Shown here in pieces: positions 1-7,214 of a DNA stretch of 7,214 nt (within the stretch, counting starts at the first letter, position 1; every line of letters begins with the position of its first letter). The position numbers and the translations under genes were made by a program. The DNA is from JBFJWU01 sp041623475 [NCBI: bacterium] (GTDB lineage Bacteria > J088). Below the pieces are notes generated by a model. That model did not search any database. It worked only from the letters and a program-made list of their open reading frames with translations, and was not told where the DNA came from. The stretch is taken from NCBI GenBank assembly GCA_041623475.1, contig JBFJWU010000177.1:1-7214 (forward strand), in the 5' to 3' direction.

Positions 1-626
1 CTGAGCGTCGCCGCCGCAGCGGCCTCGATTCCCGTAATGCTGGGGCCACCAGGCGTCAACGACAGCTTGAAGCTCGTCGCATCGGCGGAGGTGACGTAAT
101 AGAATTCGCTGGCGTGCAGTGTCTCTGTCCGGCCGAGGTTGCCGGGATCGATGAAGGTCGGTAGCGGACCGGGTTTGGTCTTGGTGGCGTCTGCGGGATC
201 GGGGATTGTCGAAACCAACAAGATGCGATCGTTCTTGGCCAGCGTCGTGGTTGGCCTCAGATTCTCGTACGTGAATGTGTCGCCCGCCGCCGCCGTGATA
301 GCGGCCTTTGCGTTGACAAAGTAGAGCGTGCCTTGCGAGACAATCCAGTCGACCGGATCCGCGTTGCTGGTATTGTCCACCGACAGTCGTTCGATTCCCG
401 CACTGATCGTCAGTCCGTCGATGTCGACTGGATTCATCAGTGGGCTGAATAACTCAACCCACTCACCATCATCGTCGGATCCGGCAGGATTGGGGAGAAC
501 TTCGGTAATCACCAGGTCCCCGGGAAACAGTGACCGGCAGGATGCAGACACTGGTGCCCGTTCAACGTTGCAGGCAACGGCAGGAATTGCCAGGAACACC
601 AGTCCAATTGCTCGAAAAGGCATCAT
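1..626 (-). CDS. Probable lipoprotein with lamin-tail (LTD) domain, 3'-partial
   Basis: From ATG at 626-624 the frame is open to the left edge: 208 codons with no stop, cut off by the window. The N terminus, MMPFRAIGLVFLAIPAVAC, is a short basic then hydrophobic signal peptide with Cys19 in a lipobox-like A-V-A-C. The -3 residue is Ala rather than Leu, so signal peptidase I cleavage after A-V-A is a second possibility. Residues 37-74 give D-L-V-I-T-E-V-L-P-N-P, then DDDGEWVELF, and N-P-V-D-I-D-G-L-T-I, the recognisable opening of the lamin-tail Ig-fold domain found in many bacterial surface proteins and nucleases. Further LTD-like pieces are GTLYFVN and LAKNDRILLVS (129-139). In-frame ATGs at 635, 626 and 623 are all possible starts; 626 gives the best signal peptide spacing. 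No Shine-Dalgarno is seen. LTD domains are usually accessory, so a catalytic or binding domain may follow beyond the edge. The partner and function are unknown. Confidence 0.85.
   Translation of the reverse strand, partial: MMPFRAIGLVFLAIPAVACNVERAPVSASCRSLFPGDLVITEVLPNPAGSDDDGEWVELFSPLMNPVDIDGLTISAGIERLSVDNTSNADPVDWIVSQGTLYFVNAKAAITAAAGDTFTYENLRPTTTLAKNDRILLVSTIPDPADATKTKPGPLPTFIDPGNLGRTETLHASEFYYVTSADATSFKLSLTPGGPSITGIEAAAAATL
570..626 (-). other. Signal peptide with candidate lipobox
   Basis: Residues 1-19 of the lipoprotein gene: n-region MMPFR with one Arg, h-region AIGLVFLAIP, then A-V-A-C19. If the ATG at 635-633 is used instead, the peptide gains M-C-R and a second basic residue. Asn follows the Cys at +2, which is not the Asp typical of inner-membrane retention in enterobacteria, so outer-membrane delivery would be expected if the organism follows that rule. 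Confidence 0.7.
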
Positions 627-633
627 TCGACAC

Positions 634-639
634 ATTATA
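634..639 (-). promoter_or_regulatory. Possible -10 box (TATAAT) for the lipoprotein gene
   Basis: Reading the minus strand, TATAAT lies seven bases past the terminator T run and seven bases before the ATG at 626-624. A start of transcription six to eight bases after it would fall at or within a base or two of that ATG, giving a leaderless or nearly leaderless message. The region where a -35 box should lie (about 656-663) is the GC-rich terminator stem and does not resemble TTGACA. The hexamer is also half of the palindrome CATTATAATG (633-642), so it could be a chance AT-rich match. Confidence 0.3.
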
Positions 640-645
640 ATGGGC

Positions 646-673
646 AAAAAAAAGAGGGCGCCGAAGCGCCCTC
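646..673 (-). terminator. Rho-independent terminator of the giant gene
   Basis: On the minus strand, a perfect 8-bp stem GAGGGCGC / GCGCCCTC (673-666 with 661-654) closes a TTCG tetraloop (665-662) and is followed at once by eight Ts (653-646). The C-x-UUCG-x-G type loop is an especially stable RNA hairpin. It begins 33 bases past the TAA of the giant gene. On the plus strand the hairpin is followed by CCCCAAAA, not a T run, so it acts in one direction only. It implies that the next gene downstream is transcribed separately. Confidence 0.95.
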
Positions 674-706
674 CCCAAAAGCCTGAGATGTGCAACGAGT
701 TAAGAC

Positions 707-3700
707 TTATGGATTGGTCACGGTATTTTTTGGCGTAAGTACGCGGGCAAAATCACTGTAACTCATCAGATTGCCACCATCGTTGTCGACATCATCAACG
801 TAAACCATGTGCAGTGTCCCGTCAGGCGCAATCTTGAACGCAGGATGCTGGAATTTCTCGTAGTCGTCCACAGAAAACAGATTGCTGAAACTCCAGGATC
901 CGTTGATCTTCCGCGCATAGCGCATATCTTCGTCATTCCCAGGATCTTCAAGGTCCTTGACATAGATCATGTGGACATTATCGTGGTCGTCCAGTTCAAG
1001 CCGCATCCACAGCCCTTCCTGTTCGCTTGGGTCTGGATCAACACCGTCTTCGACCGCCCATGTGCCATCAATTGACCGGGTGGCCAGGGAAACCAGCCAC
1101 GGTTGATCGTTGCCACGGTGTCTTTCGGTGGCCGCGATATAGATTGCTCCATCGGATCCGATTTCCAGATCCAGCCACGTATACCGATACGCCGCGGTCG
1201 CAGTCGCGATCAGTTCTTCGGCCCCGACTACGTCGTTAATCGTGTCATAGGTTACATAACGCCACTCTTCGTCGGCGTCCGCGTTATTATCGTCCAGCGC
1301 CCAGGTAATATGGGCAATGTTATTGGCATCCAGTTCGAACTCCAGCATCCGCTCTGACCGTCCAGAGTCCTCGGCAATGATATCGTTACTGACGAGGTCG
1401 CGAACGGTCCAGTCATAATCACCATCTCCATTGCCGTCCGTACCAATGATGTAACGAATGTCATTGTCTGTGTCGTCGTAGTCGATCGCATGGATTCGCC
1501 CGTCCGCGCCAACGGCCAGGTCATTCATAAAACCGATATTGTTGGATGTGGTCGCAATCGATTCGGTTACCCAAGCGCCCGTCTTATTGTTACTGAAATA
1601 CAGGTCGTCATTGGAGTCTTCGAAATAGAGAATATAGACGTTGCCGTCTTCATCGACGTCAATATTGCTCATTTTTCCGACATCGTTCGCCAACCGAATC
1701 AACTGAACTTCCCAGAATCCGGTGACGTTGTTCGCATAGTACATATCGCCATTGCTACCGTAAAACGACACGTGCTGGTGGCCAAATCGGTCAATTGCTA
1801 ACGAGGTCCAGGCGCGGATATTGGCGGCCTCCTGATCATTGTTGCCGTCACCGCCCACTGCCGATCCAGATACAAGAACAGCGGTCGGCAGCGAGTCATC
1901 ACCGGTCAGCCGAACATATTTCAGCGCAGTATTATCCTGGTCAAAGTACGACACGTGGGGCGTCCCAGTGCCGTCCACGGCGATCGACGGGCTCAGGCCA
2001 ACTGCCCCGCTAAAGTCTACGGGCAGAGTCTTTGAAGACCAGTTGTCACCGGATTTTCCGGCTGCGTACATCAAATTACCGGAGGCCACGTCAAAATAGA
2101 CGATGTGGGCAATTCCGGACGCACCAACAGCTATATCAGTGGGGCCACTATGAACCGTCCCACTGTTTACCGTATCCCTGCTCCACGCCCCACTGTTACC
2201 GGTCGCGTAACGAACCTGACCGTTGCCGCGAAGGTACGAAATATGTACAACGCGGTCGCCGTCAATATCGATCGATGGAGAATAGCCCGAGTCAACCTGG
2301 TTGGACACTGTTTCAGTCACGAAGCTGCCACTTTCGTCGGTCGCATAGTTGAGCGACGAATAAACCGCGTTGCGATACGCCAGATGAACCCCACCGATGC
2401 CATCGACGCCGATTCCAACTGCGTCCAGGGATACCTGGTTCACCGAGGCCACGGCGGTAACCCAGGACGACCCAGATCGACTGGCAACCACAATGGCATC
2501 GCCCGACGATCGATAGCTGGCATAGCCAATCACCGGTGAGCCGGTCGGATCCAGATCCAGGGCATTAAAAGTTCCCGGTACTCCGTAACTATCTACGAGT
2601 TCTGTCGTCCAGCTGCCACCTGTGCTACGATTCGCATAGCGCAGGGTGCCTGCAAATGCATCGTGGTAAGCAATATGAACCTCGCCCGTCACATCTACGG
2701 CAATTGACGTATTGCCCGTTACAGAACTTGCAGAATCTACAACATCAACAGACCAGGATCCGCTTTCGTCCGTTGCGAACAACAAGTCCCCGGTTCCGAC
2801 ATCAACAAAACTGATATACGAACGCCCGAGCGGGTCCGTGTAGATTGATGAAAACTCACCCTGGTCGCCAGTGTTGCTGACAGTTTCCCGACGATTAAAG
2901 GGCATTTCAAAGCTTGACAAGTAGGCCAGCGCCCCCTGCGGGTTACTGACATGAAAGGTCAGTTCGTCGTTGTACTGCAGGTATGGCAATGAATCCTTCG
3001 GCCAGCTGTAAATCCCGCCCGCTGGCGAAATCGACGCGTAGCCGCCAATAGTGGCCGTGCCAGCTGAATTTTCGGACGAATAACCCGTGTTTTCGTTTGT
3101 ATAACCGGATAATGCCGCCCATTCAACATCAATGCCGTAACCGGACTCGCCCATCACGATCACCGCAAATGCCGGAGGCGCAATTGGTGTTGTCTCGGTC
3201 ACCAGAAAAGTAGCCGAGGAATTGCCAGCATCGTCAACCGTATAAAGCCTGTACTGGTGCAGGCTGCCGGTCTGGATCCCTGTATTATCCTTCAGTTCCA
3301 GTACAACCGGCTCAACAATTTGCTCCCAGGCACCACTGCCGCCAATCCTGCGAGTAATTCGGTACCGATCGAAATCTGGAACCGCACTGGCAGTCCAGCG
3401 CAGTTCAACCGCCGACCTTGTAACCGGATGGCTGTCGGCGTCCAATGTAGTGTCCGATACTGCAAACCAGTTAACGCCGGACAGCGTTGGCGGAGTCTGG
3501 TCCAGTGTCACGTAATTCGTAGCCGAAGCCGAATTACCGGCAATATCATAGACGACCGCTGTAACGATCTTGGTAAACTCGCCAGCATCCAGGTTGACAC
3601 TGGTATTCAGCGGCACAGCCTGCCCCACGACGGCGGCAGTCAGGTTGCCGAATACATCAGTGGTCGCCGCATCAGGGGACAGCGAACCAACAACCGCCGA

Positions 3701-6700
3701 AACTGTTACCTGTGACACCTTGTTGGCGCCGCCGGCAATCTGGAACGATACCGTCGGCGGCAGATTGTCGTGGGTTACATCATCAGAATATGGCCCCGCC
3801 ACGTTTCCGACGGAATCCCTGAGCTCAACCGCAATGCTGTTGTCCCCGTTCAGGTTCTGGACATGGACAGTCGTTCCAGGTGCCACATACGCAAACCATG
3901 TGCCCGCAAACGGATCCGTGATATTCCCCGAATAACGAACCTCGACAGGACCGTGCAGTTCGGTAACAGACCCGACCTGCACAAAAACGGGCTCGGATGT
4001 TGTCCATTCGCTGGATACTCCGTCAACCCTGATCTCGTTGCACTCGCTGCATGTCGGCGCAATGGTGTCCAGCGTGTAGGAAACAAAGTTATCGCCGATA
4101 TTACCGGCAACATCCGTCACATACGCCGATACGACGTAGTCGGTGTTGGTCCCCGCCGCAATGGTGTGGCTCCATGACCACGTTGTCGTACCCGCCACCG
4201 GGAACGTCAACTCGGTGGCACTGCCAAAGGCGCCGCCATCCCAGTACATCATCGAATCGGTATCGAAAACGCTGATACCGACCGCCTCGACCCCGGACAG
4301 TCCGTCGGCGGACGTTCCGTTCATCGGGTTGGACACAACACTGGTGATGCCACCGGCAGGATCAAGGATGACAACCGATGGTACGGCGGTATCCAGCGTG
4401 ACTACTGCGCCATACGGGACGCTCTCGTTGCCCAGCCCATCCCGATATGTGACGTAGATTGACTTTTCACCGTCAGCACCGGACACCTGAACCGTCGCCG
4501 ATGCGGCAAATGCCGCCCAGCCGACTGGCCAGACGATGCTGGGACCAGTGACCTTCATCTGGAATGGTGGATTCGCACCCGTCACAAAAAACGAGCTTGA
4601 AATGGTCACCGAATTAGTGGCCACGGTATTGGCTGTGATGCTTCCGGTCGGCGCATCCTGATCCAGAGAAATGACAAGTGGACCAATCAGTGCAGAATTC
4701 CCTGCATCATCGATCAAAGCCAGGCGCAGGTTCTTGTTGCCTGTTCCGGCCACCATCGAAACGTTCGTAGATGACTGCGGAGCAAACCAGTTGGTCGCCC
4801 CACCAATGACATCGTCAATGACACGAGCGTGGGTAACCGGATTTGGGTTGGCATCAGCCCACGAAAGGAAAACTGTAATATCCGCAACGCTTGTTATCGC
4901 AACCGCGGCCGTAATCGACCCGGTCGGGTCAATCGTATCGAAATAGATTGAGTCCGAAACCGGAGCACTGGTATTGCCCAGGATATCCCGCATTGCAATC
5001 CAAACAGTATTGGTGACATTTGCGGTGGACAGTGTCACGGCCAGGGGACTAGCGCCTGCGAACAGATACCAGCCAAGCGGTGCGGTTACGTCGCCGGTTA
5101 CCCGGAATTCAAACGGCGCGCCGCCGCCACTGATCGGTGAACTTACAACCGGCGAACTGGTGCTGTTCGCACCGCCTGCAAGGTCGATCAAAACAGAACC
5201 GGGTGCCGTCTGGTCCAGGTCGATGGATTCGGGGAATGAAAAGGCATTTCCGGCTGAGTCATAGAACGTAACTGTCAGGTTCTTGGTTCCGTCACCTGTC
5301 GTCAACGTCGCGGTCGAGAAATCGGTAATAGATTGGCCAAATTGCTCTACGACATCCCCTGAACCAGTCAGATTGTACGTAACCGTATCGCTGTACCCGG
5401 CAAAGGCCAGGTTGACCAGAGTTGCCGAAGTCGCTGCGGCACCGCCCTCGATCTCGAACGTTGCCGCCGTTGGGGCAACGTTATCGTGGGTGACAGAATC
5501 CGAGAAGACACCGGACGCATTGCCCAAGGCATCGCGGAATTCCACGTTGACTGTATTCACGCCATTTGCCAGTGCCAATGTCACATTGGTCGTCGCTACA
5601 TAAGGGATCCAGGTCCCGGCAATGCCGTCAATGATATTGCCGGTCAAGCGAATATCGGCAACCCCACTGCCTGCTCCGTCAACGGCCTCCAGATCCAGAT
5701 TAACCGTCAGGAAATTCACCCACGGGTAACGCGGCACATCAATGGTAATGCACGTGATGCACGTCGGTGCATCCGAGTCAAACAGAAACGAACGGGAATC
5801 AGACCTGGCTCGGCTTACGCCGTCGCTGGCGCGGCTTACAACGGTAAATGTGGTCGTTCCGGACTGTGCGGAAAATGTGTAGTTCCATGTACTGAAGTCC
5901 GTGCCTGTGTCGTTGACCTCGAACCAATTGGCTGCGGAACTGTCAAACTGCCCGGAGCTTTCGTCATAGTAAAGCCCGGAACTGGTATCAACAGCCTGGA
6001 TTACAACTGTTGTCACCCCAGCACCCTTGGTGGGCGCATTTGGATCCCCGGACGTACCTGAAAAAACTGGCATCGCAGAATGGCTGGATCCACCCGCTGG
6101 CCCCGTCACTGTCAGATCAGGATTGGTCCTGTCGGAAACGATGTCGCCACGAATGTCCCCAAGGCACGCAGATTCATTGCCAGCCCTGTCCACGTATCGG
6201 AAACTGATTGCATTGGTATTATCAGCATCCAGCCCGGAATAGAAGTACGAAAAATTAGCTGGGAATGCCTGGGCGCTTTCGAGCGGATCGGCACAGATCG
6301 AATCGGTTTCGTAGACCAGCAGCGTCGGCACATCTGCAATTGTATCCGGACCTGCCAACAAAAGATCAACGTAAACGAATGTATTTGCAGTCATCGGAAC
6401 GCTGTTAACAGTTGGCGAACTGACCGAAACGGTGCCCCCAGGACCAGTCTGGTCCAATGTTACGGCATCTGCATAGTCTGCAGTTTCGTTCAGCAGTCCG
6501 TCTCGGTAACGAACGGTGACCGTCTTGATCGATTCACCTGTCGTTAACGTAATTCGCTGCGAGGCGGTCGCAGGCACATCTATCCAGCTGTCCTTGAATG
6601 TCGTTGCTACGCCATCAACGCCGGAACCACTGACAAACATCTGCACAGGTGCATTCGCGTCGGTCGCATCCAGGCCAACCAGATCAACTTGAACTGTATT

Positions 6701-7214
6701 CGAAAACTCTTCATCGGTATTGTTCGGAATGTCGATATTCAGGCAAGTTGTGCATTGCGGTTCCTGCGTATCGATCTGGAACGTCGAACTGCCCGACCCA
6801 ACATTACCTACCGCATCTACAGGGTAGACCTGGACCGTGAACGTCTTGGACCCCGTTTGCGCCGGCATGACCGGACTTGACCACGGGTCAGTACCCGTCG
6901 CAGCCATACGTATTTCAACCGGACTGATGAACGTATTCAATCCAGGATGAAAGTAAAAGGTGCCATCAAAAACACTTACGGTCAGGAACGTAACACCTGT
7001 GGGTGCCAACCCGGGATCAACAGAGTTCCCGGAAATCTGAAATGGCCACGGAGTTAAACCTGTCACCGGCGAGGTTACTGTCGCCGTTGGTGCAACCGTA
7101 TCGACGGTAACAGACGCACCGAAGCAGCCACCAATATTGTCCGCATTGTCAACCAGCCTGAAACCAATGTTTGCCACACCGTCCGTTGTTGGCAATGTCC
7201 AGCCATAGGCCTCA
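707..7214 (-). CDS. Giant secreted Ig-like / FN3 / beta-propeller repeat protein, 5'-partial
   Basis: The frame runs unbroken from the right edge to a TAA at 709-707, giving 2168 residues in the window. It begins mid-domain, so the true start and any signal peptide lie beyond 7214; the TTG at 7195-7193 is not a plausible start because in-frame codons upstream read EAYGWT and belong to the same domain. Residue numbers count from that codon. Order: Ig-like array (to 1231), FN3-like domain (1232-1338), unassigned stretch (1339-1436), fourteen propeller repeats (1437 to about 2146), and a short tail ending TVTNP. Ig linkers repeat the form D-x-x-x-P after an AGN or LGN turn. No catalytic motif is visible. 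No LPXTG, PEP-CTERM or RTX nonapeptide signal is seen at the C terminus. Such architectures are typical of surface adhesins or extracellular binding proteins; the specific ligand is unknown. Codon use looks uniform and there is no frameshift. Confidence is high for the gene and moderate for an adhesin-like role. Confidence 0.95.
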   Translation of the reverse strand, partial: EAYGWTLPTTDGVANIGFRLVDNADNIGGCFGASVTVDTVAPTATVTSPVTGLTPWPFQISGNSVDPGLAPTGVTFLTVSVFDGTFYFHPGLNTFISPVEIRMAATGTDPWSSPVMPAQTGSKTFTVQVYPVDAVGNVGSGSSTFQIDTQEPQCTTCLNIDIPNNTDEEFSNTVQVDLVGLDATDANAPVQMFVSGSGVDGVATTFKDSWIDVPATASQRITLTTGESIKTVTVRYRDGLLNETADYADAVTLDQTGPGGTVSVSSPTVNSVPMTANTFVYVDLLLAGPDTIADVPTLLVYETDSICADPLESAQAFPANFSYFYSGLDADNTNAISFRYVDRAGNESACLGDIRGDIVSDRTNPDLTVTGPAGGSSHSAMPVFSGTSGDPNAPTKGAGVTTVVIQAVDTSSGLYYDESSGQFDSSAANWFEVNDTGTDFSTWNYTFSAQSGTTTFTVVSRASDGVSRARSDSRSFLFDSDAPTCITCITIDVPRYPWVNFLTVNLDLEAVDGAGSGVADIRLTGNIIDGIAGTWIPYVATTNVTLALANGVNTVNVEFRDALGNASGVFSDSVTHDNVAPTAATFEIEGGAAATSATLVNLAFAGYSDTVTYNLTGSGDVVEQFGQSITDFSTATLTTGDGTKNLTVTFYDSAGNAFSFPESIDLDQTAPGSVLIDLAGGANSTSSPVVSSPISGGGAPFEFRVTGDVTAPLGWYLFAGASPLAVTLSTANVTNTVWIAMRDILGNTSAPVSDSIYFDTIDPTGSITAAVAITSVADITVFLSWADANPNPVTHARVIDDVIGGATNWFAPQSSTNVSMVAGTGNKNLRLALIDDAGNSALIGPLVISLDQDAPTGSITANTVATNSVTISSSFFVTGANPPFQMKVTGPSIVWPVGWAAFAASATVQVSGADGEKSIYVTYRDGLGNESVPYGAVVTLDTAVPSVVILDPAGGITSVVSNPMNGTSADGLSGVEAVGISVFDTDSMMYWDGGAFGSATELTFPVAGTTTWSWSHTIAAGTNTDYVVSAYVTDVAGNIGDNFVSYTLDTIAPTCSECNEIRVDGVSSEWTTSEPVFVQVGSVTELHGPVEVRYSGNITDPFAGTWFAYVAPGTTVHVQNLNGDNSIAVELRDSVGNVAGPYSDDVTHDNLPPTVSFQIAGGANKVSQVTVSAVVGSLSPDAATTDVFGNLTAAVVGQAVPLNTSVNLDAGEFTKIVTAVVYDIAGNSASATNYVTLDQTPPTLSGVNWFAVSDTTLDADSHPVTRSAVELRWTASAVPDFDRYRITRRIGGSGAWEQIVEPVVLELKDNTGIQTGSLHQYRLYTVDDAGNSSATFLVTETTPIAPPAFAVIVMGESGYGIDVEWAALSGYTNENTGYSSENSAGTATIGGYASISPAGGIYSWPKDSLPYLQYNDELTFHVSNPQGALAYLSSFEMPFNRRETVSNTGDQGEFSSIYTDPLGRSYISFVDVGTGDLLFATDESGSWSVDVVDSASSVTGNTSIAVDVTGEVHIAYHDAFAGTLRYANRSTGGSWTTELVDSYGVPGTFNALDLDPTGSPVIGYASYRSSGDAIVVASRSGSSWVTAVASVNQVSLDAVGIGVDGIGGVHLAYRNAVYSSLNYATDESGSFVTETVSNQVDSGYSPSIDIDGDRVVHISYLRGNGQVRYATGNSGAWSRDTVNSGTVHSGPTDIAVGASGIAHIVYFDVASGNLMYAAGKSGDNWSSKTLPVDFSGAVGLSPSIAVDGTGTPHVSYFDQDNTALKYVRLTGDDSLPTAVLVSGSAVGGDGNNDQEAANIRAWTSLAIDRFGHQHVSFYGSNGDMYYANNVTGFWEVQLIRLANDVGKMSNIDVDEDGNVYILYFEDSNDDLYFSNNKTGAWVTESIATTSNNIGFMNDLAVGADGRIHAIDYDDTDNDIRYIIGTDGNGDGDYDWTVRDLVSNDIIAEDSGRSERMLEFELDANNIAHITWALDDNNADADEEWRYVTYDTINDVVGAEELIATATAAYRYTWLDLEIGSDGAIYIAATERHRGNDQPWLVSLATRSIDGTWAVEDGVDPDPSEQEGLWMRLELDDHDNVHMIYVKDLEDPGNDEDMRYARKINGSWSFSNLFSVDDYEKFQHPAFKIAPDGTLHMVYVDDVDNDGGNLMSYSDFARVLTPKNTVTNP
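758..1867 (-). repeat. Propeller repeats 8-14 of the giant protein (probable second seven-bladed propeller, acidic)
   Basis: Residues 1777 to about 2146 hold seven further repeats related to the first seven but longer (about 43-61 residues) and more divergent. The diagnostic strand is HVSF, YILY, IHAID, HITW, YIAA, HMIY and HMVY in order. They are markedly acidic: hand counting gives about 76 Asp plus Glu against about 23 Lys plus Arg in 370 residues, compared with about 37 against 14 in the preceding 340. Asp/Asn-rich inter-strand loops such as DGNGDGDYD (1920-1928) and VDDVDNDGG in the last repeat look suited to calcium binding. The last repeat lacks a clear outer G-S-W strand; the tail (VLTPKNTVTNP) may supply it or a Velcro closure may. 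Alternatively all 14 repeats could form one larger closed ring. Confidence 0.7.
1868..2887 (-). repeat. Propeller repeats 1-7 of the giant protein (probable seven-bladed beta-propeller)
   Basis: Residues 1437-1776 consist of seven consecutive repeats of about 46-51 residues. Each shows S-I/L-x-V/I-D-x-x-G, then a strand ending in a hydrophobic-aromatic pair (YISF, HIAY, VIGY, HLAY, HISY, HIVY, HVSY), a turn with D/N-G, a strand of the form L-x-Y/F-A (LLFATD, LRYANR, LNYATD, VRYATG, LMYAAG, LKYVRL) and G-S/A-W followed by a threonine/valine strand. Four strands per repeat with this period match a beta-propeller blade. The pattern resembles sugar-binding or BNR-like extracellular propellers, but the Asp-box S-x-D-x-G-x-x-T-W is not clearly present, so sialidase-type chemistry is not supported. 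The likely role is ligand or partner binding at the tip of the Ig stalk. Confidence 0.75.
2888..3181 (-). other. Unassigned about 98-residue segment between FN3-like domain and propeller
   Basis: Residues 1339-1436 do not resemble the Ig, FN3 or propeller repeats. The segment starts with a proline-rich linker (IAPPAF), includes GIDVEWAALSGY, then a Tyr/Asn/Ser/Gly-rich stretch (GYTNENTGYSSENS), and ends with a mixed hydrophobic part (DELTFHVSNPQGALAYLSSF) leading into the first propeller repeat. It might be a second, diverged beta-sandwich, because VEW resembles an FN3 strand B, or a long glycine/serine linker followed by a closing strand of the propeller. I do not recognise a family. Confidence 0.45.
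3182..3502 (-). other. Fibronectin type III-like domain within the giant protein
   Basis: Residues 1232-1338 follow the last Ig-like domain and differ from it. Visible hallmarks are VELRWTAS (strand B with its conserved W), DFDRYRITRR (strand C with Y-x-I/V), a later HQYRLYTVDDAGN (the strand F Y-R-L/V-x-A/V-D-x-A-G-N pattern), and a threonine/proline-rich exit, TETTPI. This combination is typical of FN3 domains in bacterial extracellular proteins, where they act mainly as spacers or weak carbohydrate or protein contacts. Its place between the Ig stalk and the propellers suggests a hinge or adaptor. The family call rests on motif reading only. Confidence 0.75.
3503..7214 (-). repeat. Protein-level tandem array of Ig-like domains (12 complete, 1 partial)
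   Basis: Domain joins are marked by a D followed three to four residues later by P: D32, D142, D248, D355, D473, D571, D661, D753, D845, D935, D1043, D1143 and D1232. Two main types alternate. The long type (32-141, 355-472, 935-1042; about 110-118 residues) has a V/I-x-V-F/V-D core, an aromatic Y-Y/W-D patch and ends in a D-x-AGN or similar turn. The short type (about 82-105 residues) carries W-x-x-F/Y in the middle and R-D-x-L-G-N near the end. These are sequence features of bacterial Ig-like beta-sandwich stalks. The order long-short-short occurs three times; the second copy has three additional short domains (661-934). A partial domain (residues before 32) shows the array continues upstream. 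Assignment to a specific Pfam Ig family needs a profile search. Confidence 0.85.

Follow-up and report, generated by a model that had tools for sequence, protein, structure and literature searches.

A predicted double beta-propeller of non-WD40 blades at the tip of a long Ig-like stalk in a bacterial protein

Architecture of the protein

The minus strand of the window, the whole 7,214-nucleotide stretch of DNA analysed here, holds one reading frame from position 7213 to 707, whose 5' end is left open by the window edge. The frame exceeds 2,160 residues, and the structure predictions described below indicate that its C-terminal ~720 residues quite probably fold into 14 four-stranded blades arranged as a double beta-propeller, with blades 1-7 in one ring and blades 8-14 in another, carried by a long Ig-like stalk. 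Residues are numbered along the translation of window positions 710-7195 on the minus strand; the repeats noticed in an earlier sequence-only reading correspond to residues 1437-2146 of this frame. The main parts are the following:

651..676, minus strand: terminator-like hairpin just 3' of the stop codon (from the sequence)
749..1807, minus strand: predicted ring 2, the acidic one, made up of blades 8-14 and running from strand A8 to strand C14 (residues 1797-2149; from the model)
1820..1867, minus strand: insert GSAVGGDGNNDQEAAN, lying within the loop 7D-8A and putatively the inter-ring hinge (from the sequence; pLDDT below 50 at model residues 339-366)
1868..1885, minus strand: predicted strand D7 (TAVLVS), of low confidence, which would close ring 1 in a clamshell or ring 2 in a beads-on-a-string arrangement (from the model)
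1907..2863, minus strand: predicted ring 1, made up of blades 1-7 and running from strand A1 to strand C7 (residues 1445-1763; from register, profile and model)
2876..2899, minus strand: predicted strand D0 (FNRRETVS), an N-terminal outer strand closing a ring (DSSP, AlphaFold2 model residues 7-14)
2918..7213, minus strand: Ig-like stalk of about 13 tandem Ig-like domains with an FnIII-like segment (DxxxPT-type boundaries; FnIII by eye only)

The stalk spans residues 1 to ~1426 and contains 13 DxxxPT-type boundary motifs at a spacing of 89-118 residues, recovered with a pattern that was designed for this protein itself. The only domain matches in this region at E up to 0.001 are to Big_13, with a score below its cut-off. 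When the regions N-terminal to the propellers were scanned in 11 of the 29 relative arrays, Big domains above the cut-off were found in five (L032, L088, L089, L007 and L037). These observations support the proposal that the propellers sit on an Ig stalk. At the other end, the hairpin follows the stop codon directly, so the propellers look like the natural C-terminus of the protein.

Downstream of the hairpin a further minus-strand frame, cut by the window (3-695), has a lipoprotein-like start as judged by eye and a likely start beyond the terminator; it matches the Lamin Tail Domain (LTD) below the cut-off (30.5 versus 34.3 bits). The LTD passes its cut-off in all three genomes of the class of relative L032. 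The genome of L032 itself (G001, contigs 181, 218 and 242) encodes several giant frames of 2,262-4,276 aa; among the matches listed, these correspond to the window's Ig-like stalk and not to its propellers. Hence, this type of stalk seems to be a multigene theme in that genome.

Fourteen blades in register

When phased by strand D, the Trp strand, 14 blades fall in register at residues 1435-2151, with lengths of 45, 48, 49, 47, 46, 48 and 53 residues for blades 1-7 and 56, 47, 54, 61, 56, 55 and 52 for blades 8-14. The sequence-only reading had counted exactly 14 repeats by the motif H/Y-hydrophobic-x-Y/F/W. Inside residues 1437-2146 this motif matches 13 times, with 11 matches in register and two off it (at 1558 and 1980), and blades 3, 10 and 12 are without it; the count of 14 stands by register and by predicted structure, but not by the motif from which it was drawn.

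A family blade profile, for which 567 segments from relatives were used, matches the protein with an E-value of 4.8e-79 in a search of this one sequence, a score that is not fully independent because the segments of the relatives were first found through the window's own blades. It detects blades 1-10 and 13 at 12 to 46 bits (11 of the 14 blades above 10 bits), gives about -1 bit for blades 11 and 14 and does not find blade 12. The last is also unmatched in all 29 rows of a joint alignment of the relative arrays, in which 27 rows are shifted by one blade over blades 1-11. In the predicted structure blade 12 is a full blade, the blocks that hold its strands A and B having pLDDT values of 88 and 81.

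Predicted structure and closure of the rings

We predicted the structure of the propeller region with AlphaFold2, using an alignment (A7) of 16 of the 29 relative arrays, picked for keeping the 14-to-14 register. The model has a pLDDT of 77.2, a pTM of 0.55 and 56 strands, and it displays seven four-stranded blades per ring in two copies, that is, 14 blades in two rings. Block means of pLDDT are 85.6 in ring 1, 41.0 at the junction and 75.0 in ring 2, and the junction is the only internal stretch of more than seven residues with a pLDDT below 50. Among the 50 matches listed by VIA-align for this model, 42 place residues 1427-1771 on propellers, seven place residues ~1770-2154 on others and one crosses the junction (model residues 5..389, rmsd 5.6). 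In the first group, residues 1..345 of the model align with CylK (Z 36.3, rmsd 2.8, 333 residues), 5..345 with virginiamycin B lyase (Z 30.8, rmsd 2.7, 291 residues) and ~21..345 with several PLL/PHL lectin chains; in the second, 344..728 align with the glycoside hydrolase 5mvh (Z 28.2, rmsd 3.6, 346 residues) and 369..729 with PLL5 (Z 27.9, rmsd 2.8, 307 residues). All these targets we take to be seven-bladed propellers. Double propellers are absent among the 50 matches listed, an absence that excludes nothing. With its two aligned sets, the prediction thus returns neither a single closed ring nor blades that fail to close after repeat 7, either of which would have spoken against the earlier proposal.

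How the two rings may be closed is read with most confidence from L032, which is among the closest relatives found and has 14 blades without a linker. Its model, computed from an alignment (A8) of 26 of the other 28 arrays (all but L107 and the second half of L042), has a pLDDT of 91.5 and a pTM of 0.76, and its lowest internal ten-residue block (331-340, at 77) lies at the end of blade 7. PLL lectins align with residues 32..356 of this model. CylK, virginiamycin B lyase and WD61 align from ~15-19 to 677 over 269-323 residues, which we read as strand D0 plus blades 8-14, as deduced from the range, the length and the first and last aligned residues only. Alignment with the double propellers Elp2, Pwp2 and 2YMU extends over 568-613 residues at an rmsd of 8.9-10.9, so that the hinge angle seems to be different in L032. 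In its model, L032 appears to split 7 + 7 into rings with one shared closure, and hence not to consist of two independent domains placed end to end.

Such a closure recalls the clamshell topology shared by Utp21, Aip1 and 2YMU; in Aip1/Utp21, as the available portion of the source has it, the 7D-8A and 14D-1A loops connect the two rings formed by the 14 blades, and the last repeat is completed by strand D of repeat 1 (PMC3897721). In this wiring the 7D-8A loop, the site of the window's insert, is one of the two inter-ring connectors. By extension from the model of L032, it is reasonably probable that the window's domain is likewise wired as a clamshell, its N-terminal strand completing blade 14 as in Aip1, Utp21 and the WRAP protein of 2YMU, and that GSAVGGDGNNDQEAAN would lengthen the inter-ring hinge.

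The principal alternative is that each ring closes on itself, D0 pairing with blade 7 and D7 with blade 14, with a flexible linker between the two like a string between beads. The window's own model does pair D0 with ring 1 and close each ring separately, at low confidence, and the propellers align with it contiguously on either side of the junction. DSSP assigns 21 residues to its D7-A8 loop, a long one, and its C7-D7 loop (9 residues) ties with C6-D6 as the longest C-D loop of ring 1. However, D7 itself has a pLDDT below 50, the confidently predicted structure of L032 points to a shared closure, and the median spacing of 47 residues at 7|8 in 15 relative arrays leaves C7-D7 no slack to cross between rings. 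We therefore regard self-closing rings as a genuine but lesser possibility beside the clamshell.

An acidic second ring

The sequence-only reading had also held that the repeats change exactly between blades 7 and 8, the second seven being longer and acidic. The Gly/Asn/Asp-rich insert GSAVGGDGNNDQEAAN (residues 1777-1792), in the loop between strands D7 and A8, alone sits exactly at this boundary. Blade lengths shift near blades 7-8 (45-53 residues in blades 1-7 versus 47-61 in blades 8-14; Mann-Whitney P 0.018), but blade 9 is short. The best change point for acidity, with a rise from 11% to 23% acidic residues, is residue 1846 of blade 9, a shift that none of 300 permutations equalled; blade 8 is as low in acidity as blades 1-7, and the family-profile scores drop at blade 11. 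The B strands of neighbouring blades lie 61 residues apart at 7|8 and 60 at 10|11. Hence, the proposed change is borne out in part, the several shifts not coinciding at 7|8.

The extra acid of ring 2 lies mainly in the loops of one face. In the B-C loops 17 of 44 residues are acidic, versus 1 of 26 in ring 1, and in the D-A loops 15 of 63 versus 3 of 36; the corresponding fractions are 11/35 versus 8/35 for the A-B loops, 4/28 versus 7/40 for the C-D loops and 29/207 versus 18/203 for the strands. The B-C and D-A loops of a propeller are on the same face. Ring 2 further contains three motifs of the form D-x-[DN]-x-D-G:

1643..1660, minus strand: DxDxDG motif DVDEDG in the A-B turn of blade 9
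1421..1438, minus strand: DxNxDG motif DGNGDG in the C-D loop of blade 10
776..793, minus strand: DxDxDG motif DVDNDG in the B-C loop of blade 14

Ring 1 has none of them, and shuffled sequences yield 0.14 on average, with at least three in 1 of 5000 shuffles. Across 28 relative arrays we found one such motif in all the second rings together and two in the first rings, both in L007. Ring 2 is the more acidic ring in 16 of these 28 arrays, with a maximum of 17.3% acidic residues as against 20.3% in the window. As the relatives are less acidic and nearly devoid of the motif, these traits are a feature of the window's protein and not of the family. In calcium propellers of the VCBS/integrin type, DxDxDG loops recur at the same place of several blades, whereas the three motifs of the window sit in three different loops. 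Ring 2 looks like a specialised head, possibly a calcium-binding one.

Likely role of the double head

Going by architecture only, the protein most likely serves to bind a ligand through its double head, with a stalk that is displayed on the surface or secreted. The stalk would keep the double head clear of the cell surface, and its rings would bind an extracellular ligand, which we infer to be most likely a glycan or a matrix polymer. Ring 1 would keep the canonical loops of the family, and ring 2 would be specialised, presenting the acidic face of its B-C and D-A loops and probably binding Ca2+. On this view, giant proteins with an Ig stalk may be tipped with two binding heads that differ from each other.

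Alternatively, the domain might be a catalytic propeller comparable to GH145, PL24/PL25 or virginiamycin B lyase. Its structural matches include such enzymes, and BNR_4 (PF15892) scores 30.0 bits for the domain alone against a cut-off of 27.3 bits. However, the structural matches to lectins and integrin alpha are equally good, and the BNR_4 match spans about one blade (residues 44-96 of 710), covers only positions 212-267 of the 272 in the profile and scores 21.7 bits for the whole protein. Searches at the sequence level establish no enzyme or lectin family for the domain, and we consider a catalytic role unlikely.

Relatives, blade numbers and growth of the arrays

No relative emerged from a first scan of genome contigs with the propeller domain as a single protein, nor from phages and plasmids at 1e-5, and neither PHROGs nor PADLOC added anything of use. 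The blades in a seven-row alignment differed too much for it to serve as a search query, and two-row and three-row alignments of the window's blades found none in viral contigs. The effective bait was a two-blade alignment with an added consensus row, which found 78 bacterial and archaeal loci (among the best 80 of 193 confirmed stretches) and one viral contig. Judging from these sequence matches, the propeller family is present in many bacterial and archaeal genomes.

In this first set, drawn from many phyla, 66 of the 76 uncut arrays have 7, 14 or 28 blades (46, 19 and 1 arrays, respectively); the other ten comprise four with 5, two with 6 and one each with 8, 12, 13 and 15. Arrays of fewer than four blades and eight that are cut by contig ends were excluded from this census, in which several loci share a genome, so that a binomial P value for it serves as a rough guide only. 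At two other score thresholds the multiples of seven number 68 of 76 and 65 of 77. We used the plain blade count throughout and dropped a gap-filled one, as it may take inserted loops as blades.

A second, more divergent set (L107-L136), made up of short loci, came from a search with the window's domain in the phylum to which L032's genome belongs. Leaving out one cut array, 10 of its 22 arrays are multiples of seven (eight with 14 blades and two with 7) and the other 12 have 4-6 detected blades. Many arrays among L112-L129 have 4-6 profile-detected blades, several of them with gaps of 92-158 residues. Since the gaps in several are sized like missed blades, the 4-6-blade arrays of this set may be undercounts. 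In the same phylum 90 of 195 genomes have a match, and so do three of three genomes of L032's class; each of these three encodes a protein that ends in 14 blades, preceded by an Ig-type stalk.

Several arrays are unusual in their own right. An archaeal metagenome-assembled genome encodes 28 blades in one frame from aa 815 (L042), with a very even spacing of 45-49 residues, which would make four rings of seven. At L016 two adjacent frames have 14 blades each, one of them preceded by an RCC1-type propeller and so possibly forming three rings. The 14-blade arrays of L003, L007, L054 and L063 have one long insert, with a spacing of 92-107; that of L007 lies at 7|8 and carries a MopE-type metal-binding motif below the cut-off, and the N-terminal part of the same protein has eight MopE stretches.

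We compared blades within the arrays of 14 in 28 of the 29 cases (the second half of L042, with 15 hits, was left out). Mean blade similarity declines with distance, with values of 94.1 at lag 6, 92.5 at lag 7 and 94.6 at lag 8; there is no peak at lag 7, and in 12 of the 28 arrays the similarity at lag 7 lies above the average of its two neighbouring lags. In the window, pairs of blades i and i+7 score 26.2 versus 24.9 for all pairs between the halves. A duplication of a whole seven-bladed propeller is unsupported, there being no similarity of blade i to blade i+7, and a linker seam at 7|8 was not found as a family feature in the 15 arrays, their spacing there being ordinary. Blade 1 is distinctive in 14-blade relatives such as L004, L017, L032 and L088, in which it is short and has GG before its C strand. 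Blade 8 is without these features in the 29-array alignment, which fits one shared closure and not two copies of seven blades.

In the absence of i to i+7 similarity, the 14-blade arrays probably grew blade by blade. Most likely, the family builds its heads by the addition of single blades and multiples of seven are retained because they close, a selection that we infer from the census. The suggestion that the domain is two fused seven-bladed propellers is supported in its geometry, two rings of seven being predicted here and in L032, while the word fused is to be taken with care, given the lack of any sign of whole-propeller duplication and the apparent shared closure in L032. The series of 7, 14 and 28, with few intermediates in the first set, offers a natural case outside WD40 proteins for propeller growth and the loss of intermediates.

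A bolder synthesis would see here a widespread secreted non-WD40 family that grows blade by blade, persists only at multiples of seven and is wired as strand-sharing clamshells, with a calcium-loaded acidic face on ring 2 of this protein beside a canonical ring 1, and with D0 and D7 able to close either ring and so to switch the head between clamshell and beads; taken as a whole this is rather unlikely. Least probable by far is one ring closed by all 14 blades, or their division into 8 + 6 or 6 + 8, which could draw on the ordinary 7|8 spacing of the relatives, the change points at blades 9 and 11 of the window and the second-set arrays of 4-6 detected blades, but is opposed by the alignment of both models to propeller chains in two sets, by seven being the commonest size in the first set beside two 6s and one 8 and, for the single ring, by the range of 4 to 12 blades given for known propellers in the available text of PMC6805158.

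Comparison with known systems

Neither phmmer nor a profile search of PDB sequences found a sequence relative of the double propeller, the PLL/PHL lectins included. Without a solved structure of any sequence relative in the PDB copy searched, a single one would inform a widespread family. Likewise, we recognised no published description of this repeat family in the part of the literature covered. The profile search gave matches at ~1e-5 to AI-designed TIM barrels, which were set aside as perhaps compositional, arising from idealised repeats. The NCBIfam family NF053835 (PDIAV motif-containing lipoprotein) matches partially, at E 1.6e-9 over residues 249-325 of 710, with 37.7 bits against a cut-off of 90; L088 and L107 also partly match it.

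In structure, the Photorhabdus lectins of the PLL/PHL type are among the best matches of both models, but each is a single propeller, and the likeness is one of fold, neither search giving a sequence match. Aip1 and Utp21, which are eukaryotic WD40 proteins, have 14 blades and the wiring read for L032, that of the window's domain being less certain. A similar plan of propeller and Ig-like domains is found in BapP of Pseudoalteromonas tunicata, described in the available part of the source as a Ca2+-dependent biofilm adhesin with a predicted propeller and 12 Ig-like domains (PMC12153261); its propeller, in contrast, is single, five-bladed and N-terminal.

WD40 propellers, as outlined in the accessible portion of the source, have blades of ~40 residues with a Trp-Asp motif (PMC9218822). 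The blades of the window are longer, at 45-61 residues, and residues 1427-2162 contain no WD dipeptide and no WD40 match at E up to 1. A bacterial parallel in architecture is a WD40 protein, Npun_R6612 (WRAP; PDB 2YMU), whose C-terminal 14-blade array forms two seven-bladed propellers according to the available text of two accounts (PMC9218822, PMC6805158). It resembles the predicted domain of the window in having 14 blades in two seven-bladed rings and aligns with the model of L032 over 568 residues (Z 24.8, rmsd 10.8), but differs in its near-identical WD40 blades and its STAND ATPase, in place of which the window's protein has an Ig stalk. Thus, double seven-bladed propellers of 14 blades are already known among WD40 proteins, and the one predicted here is of a non-WD40 kind.
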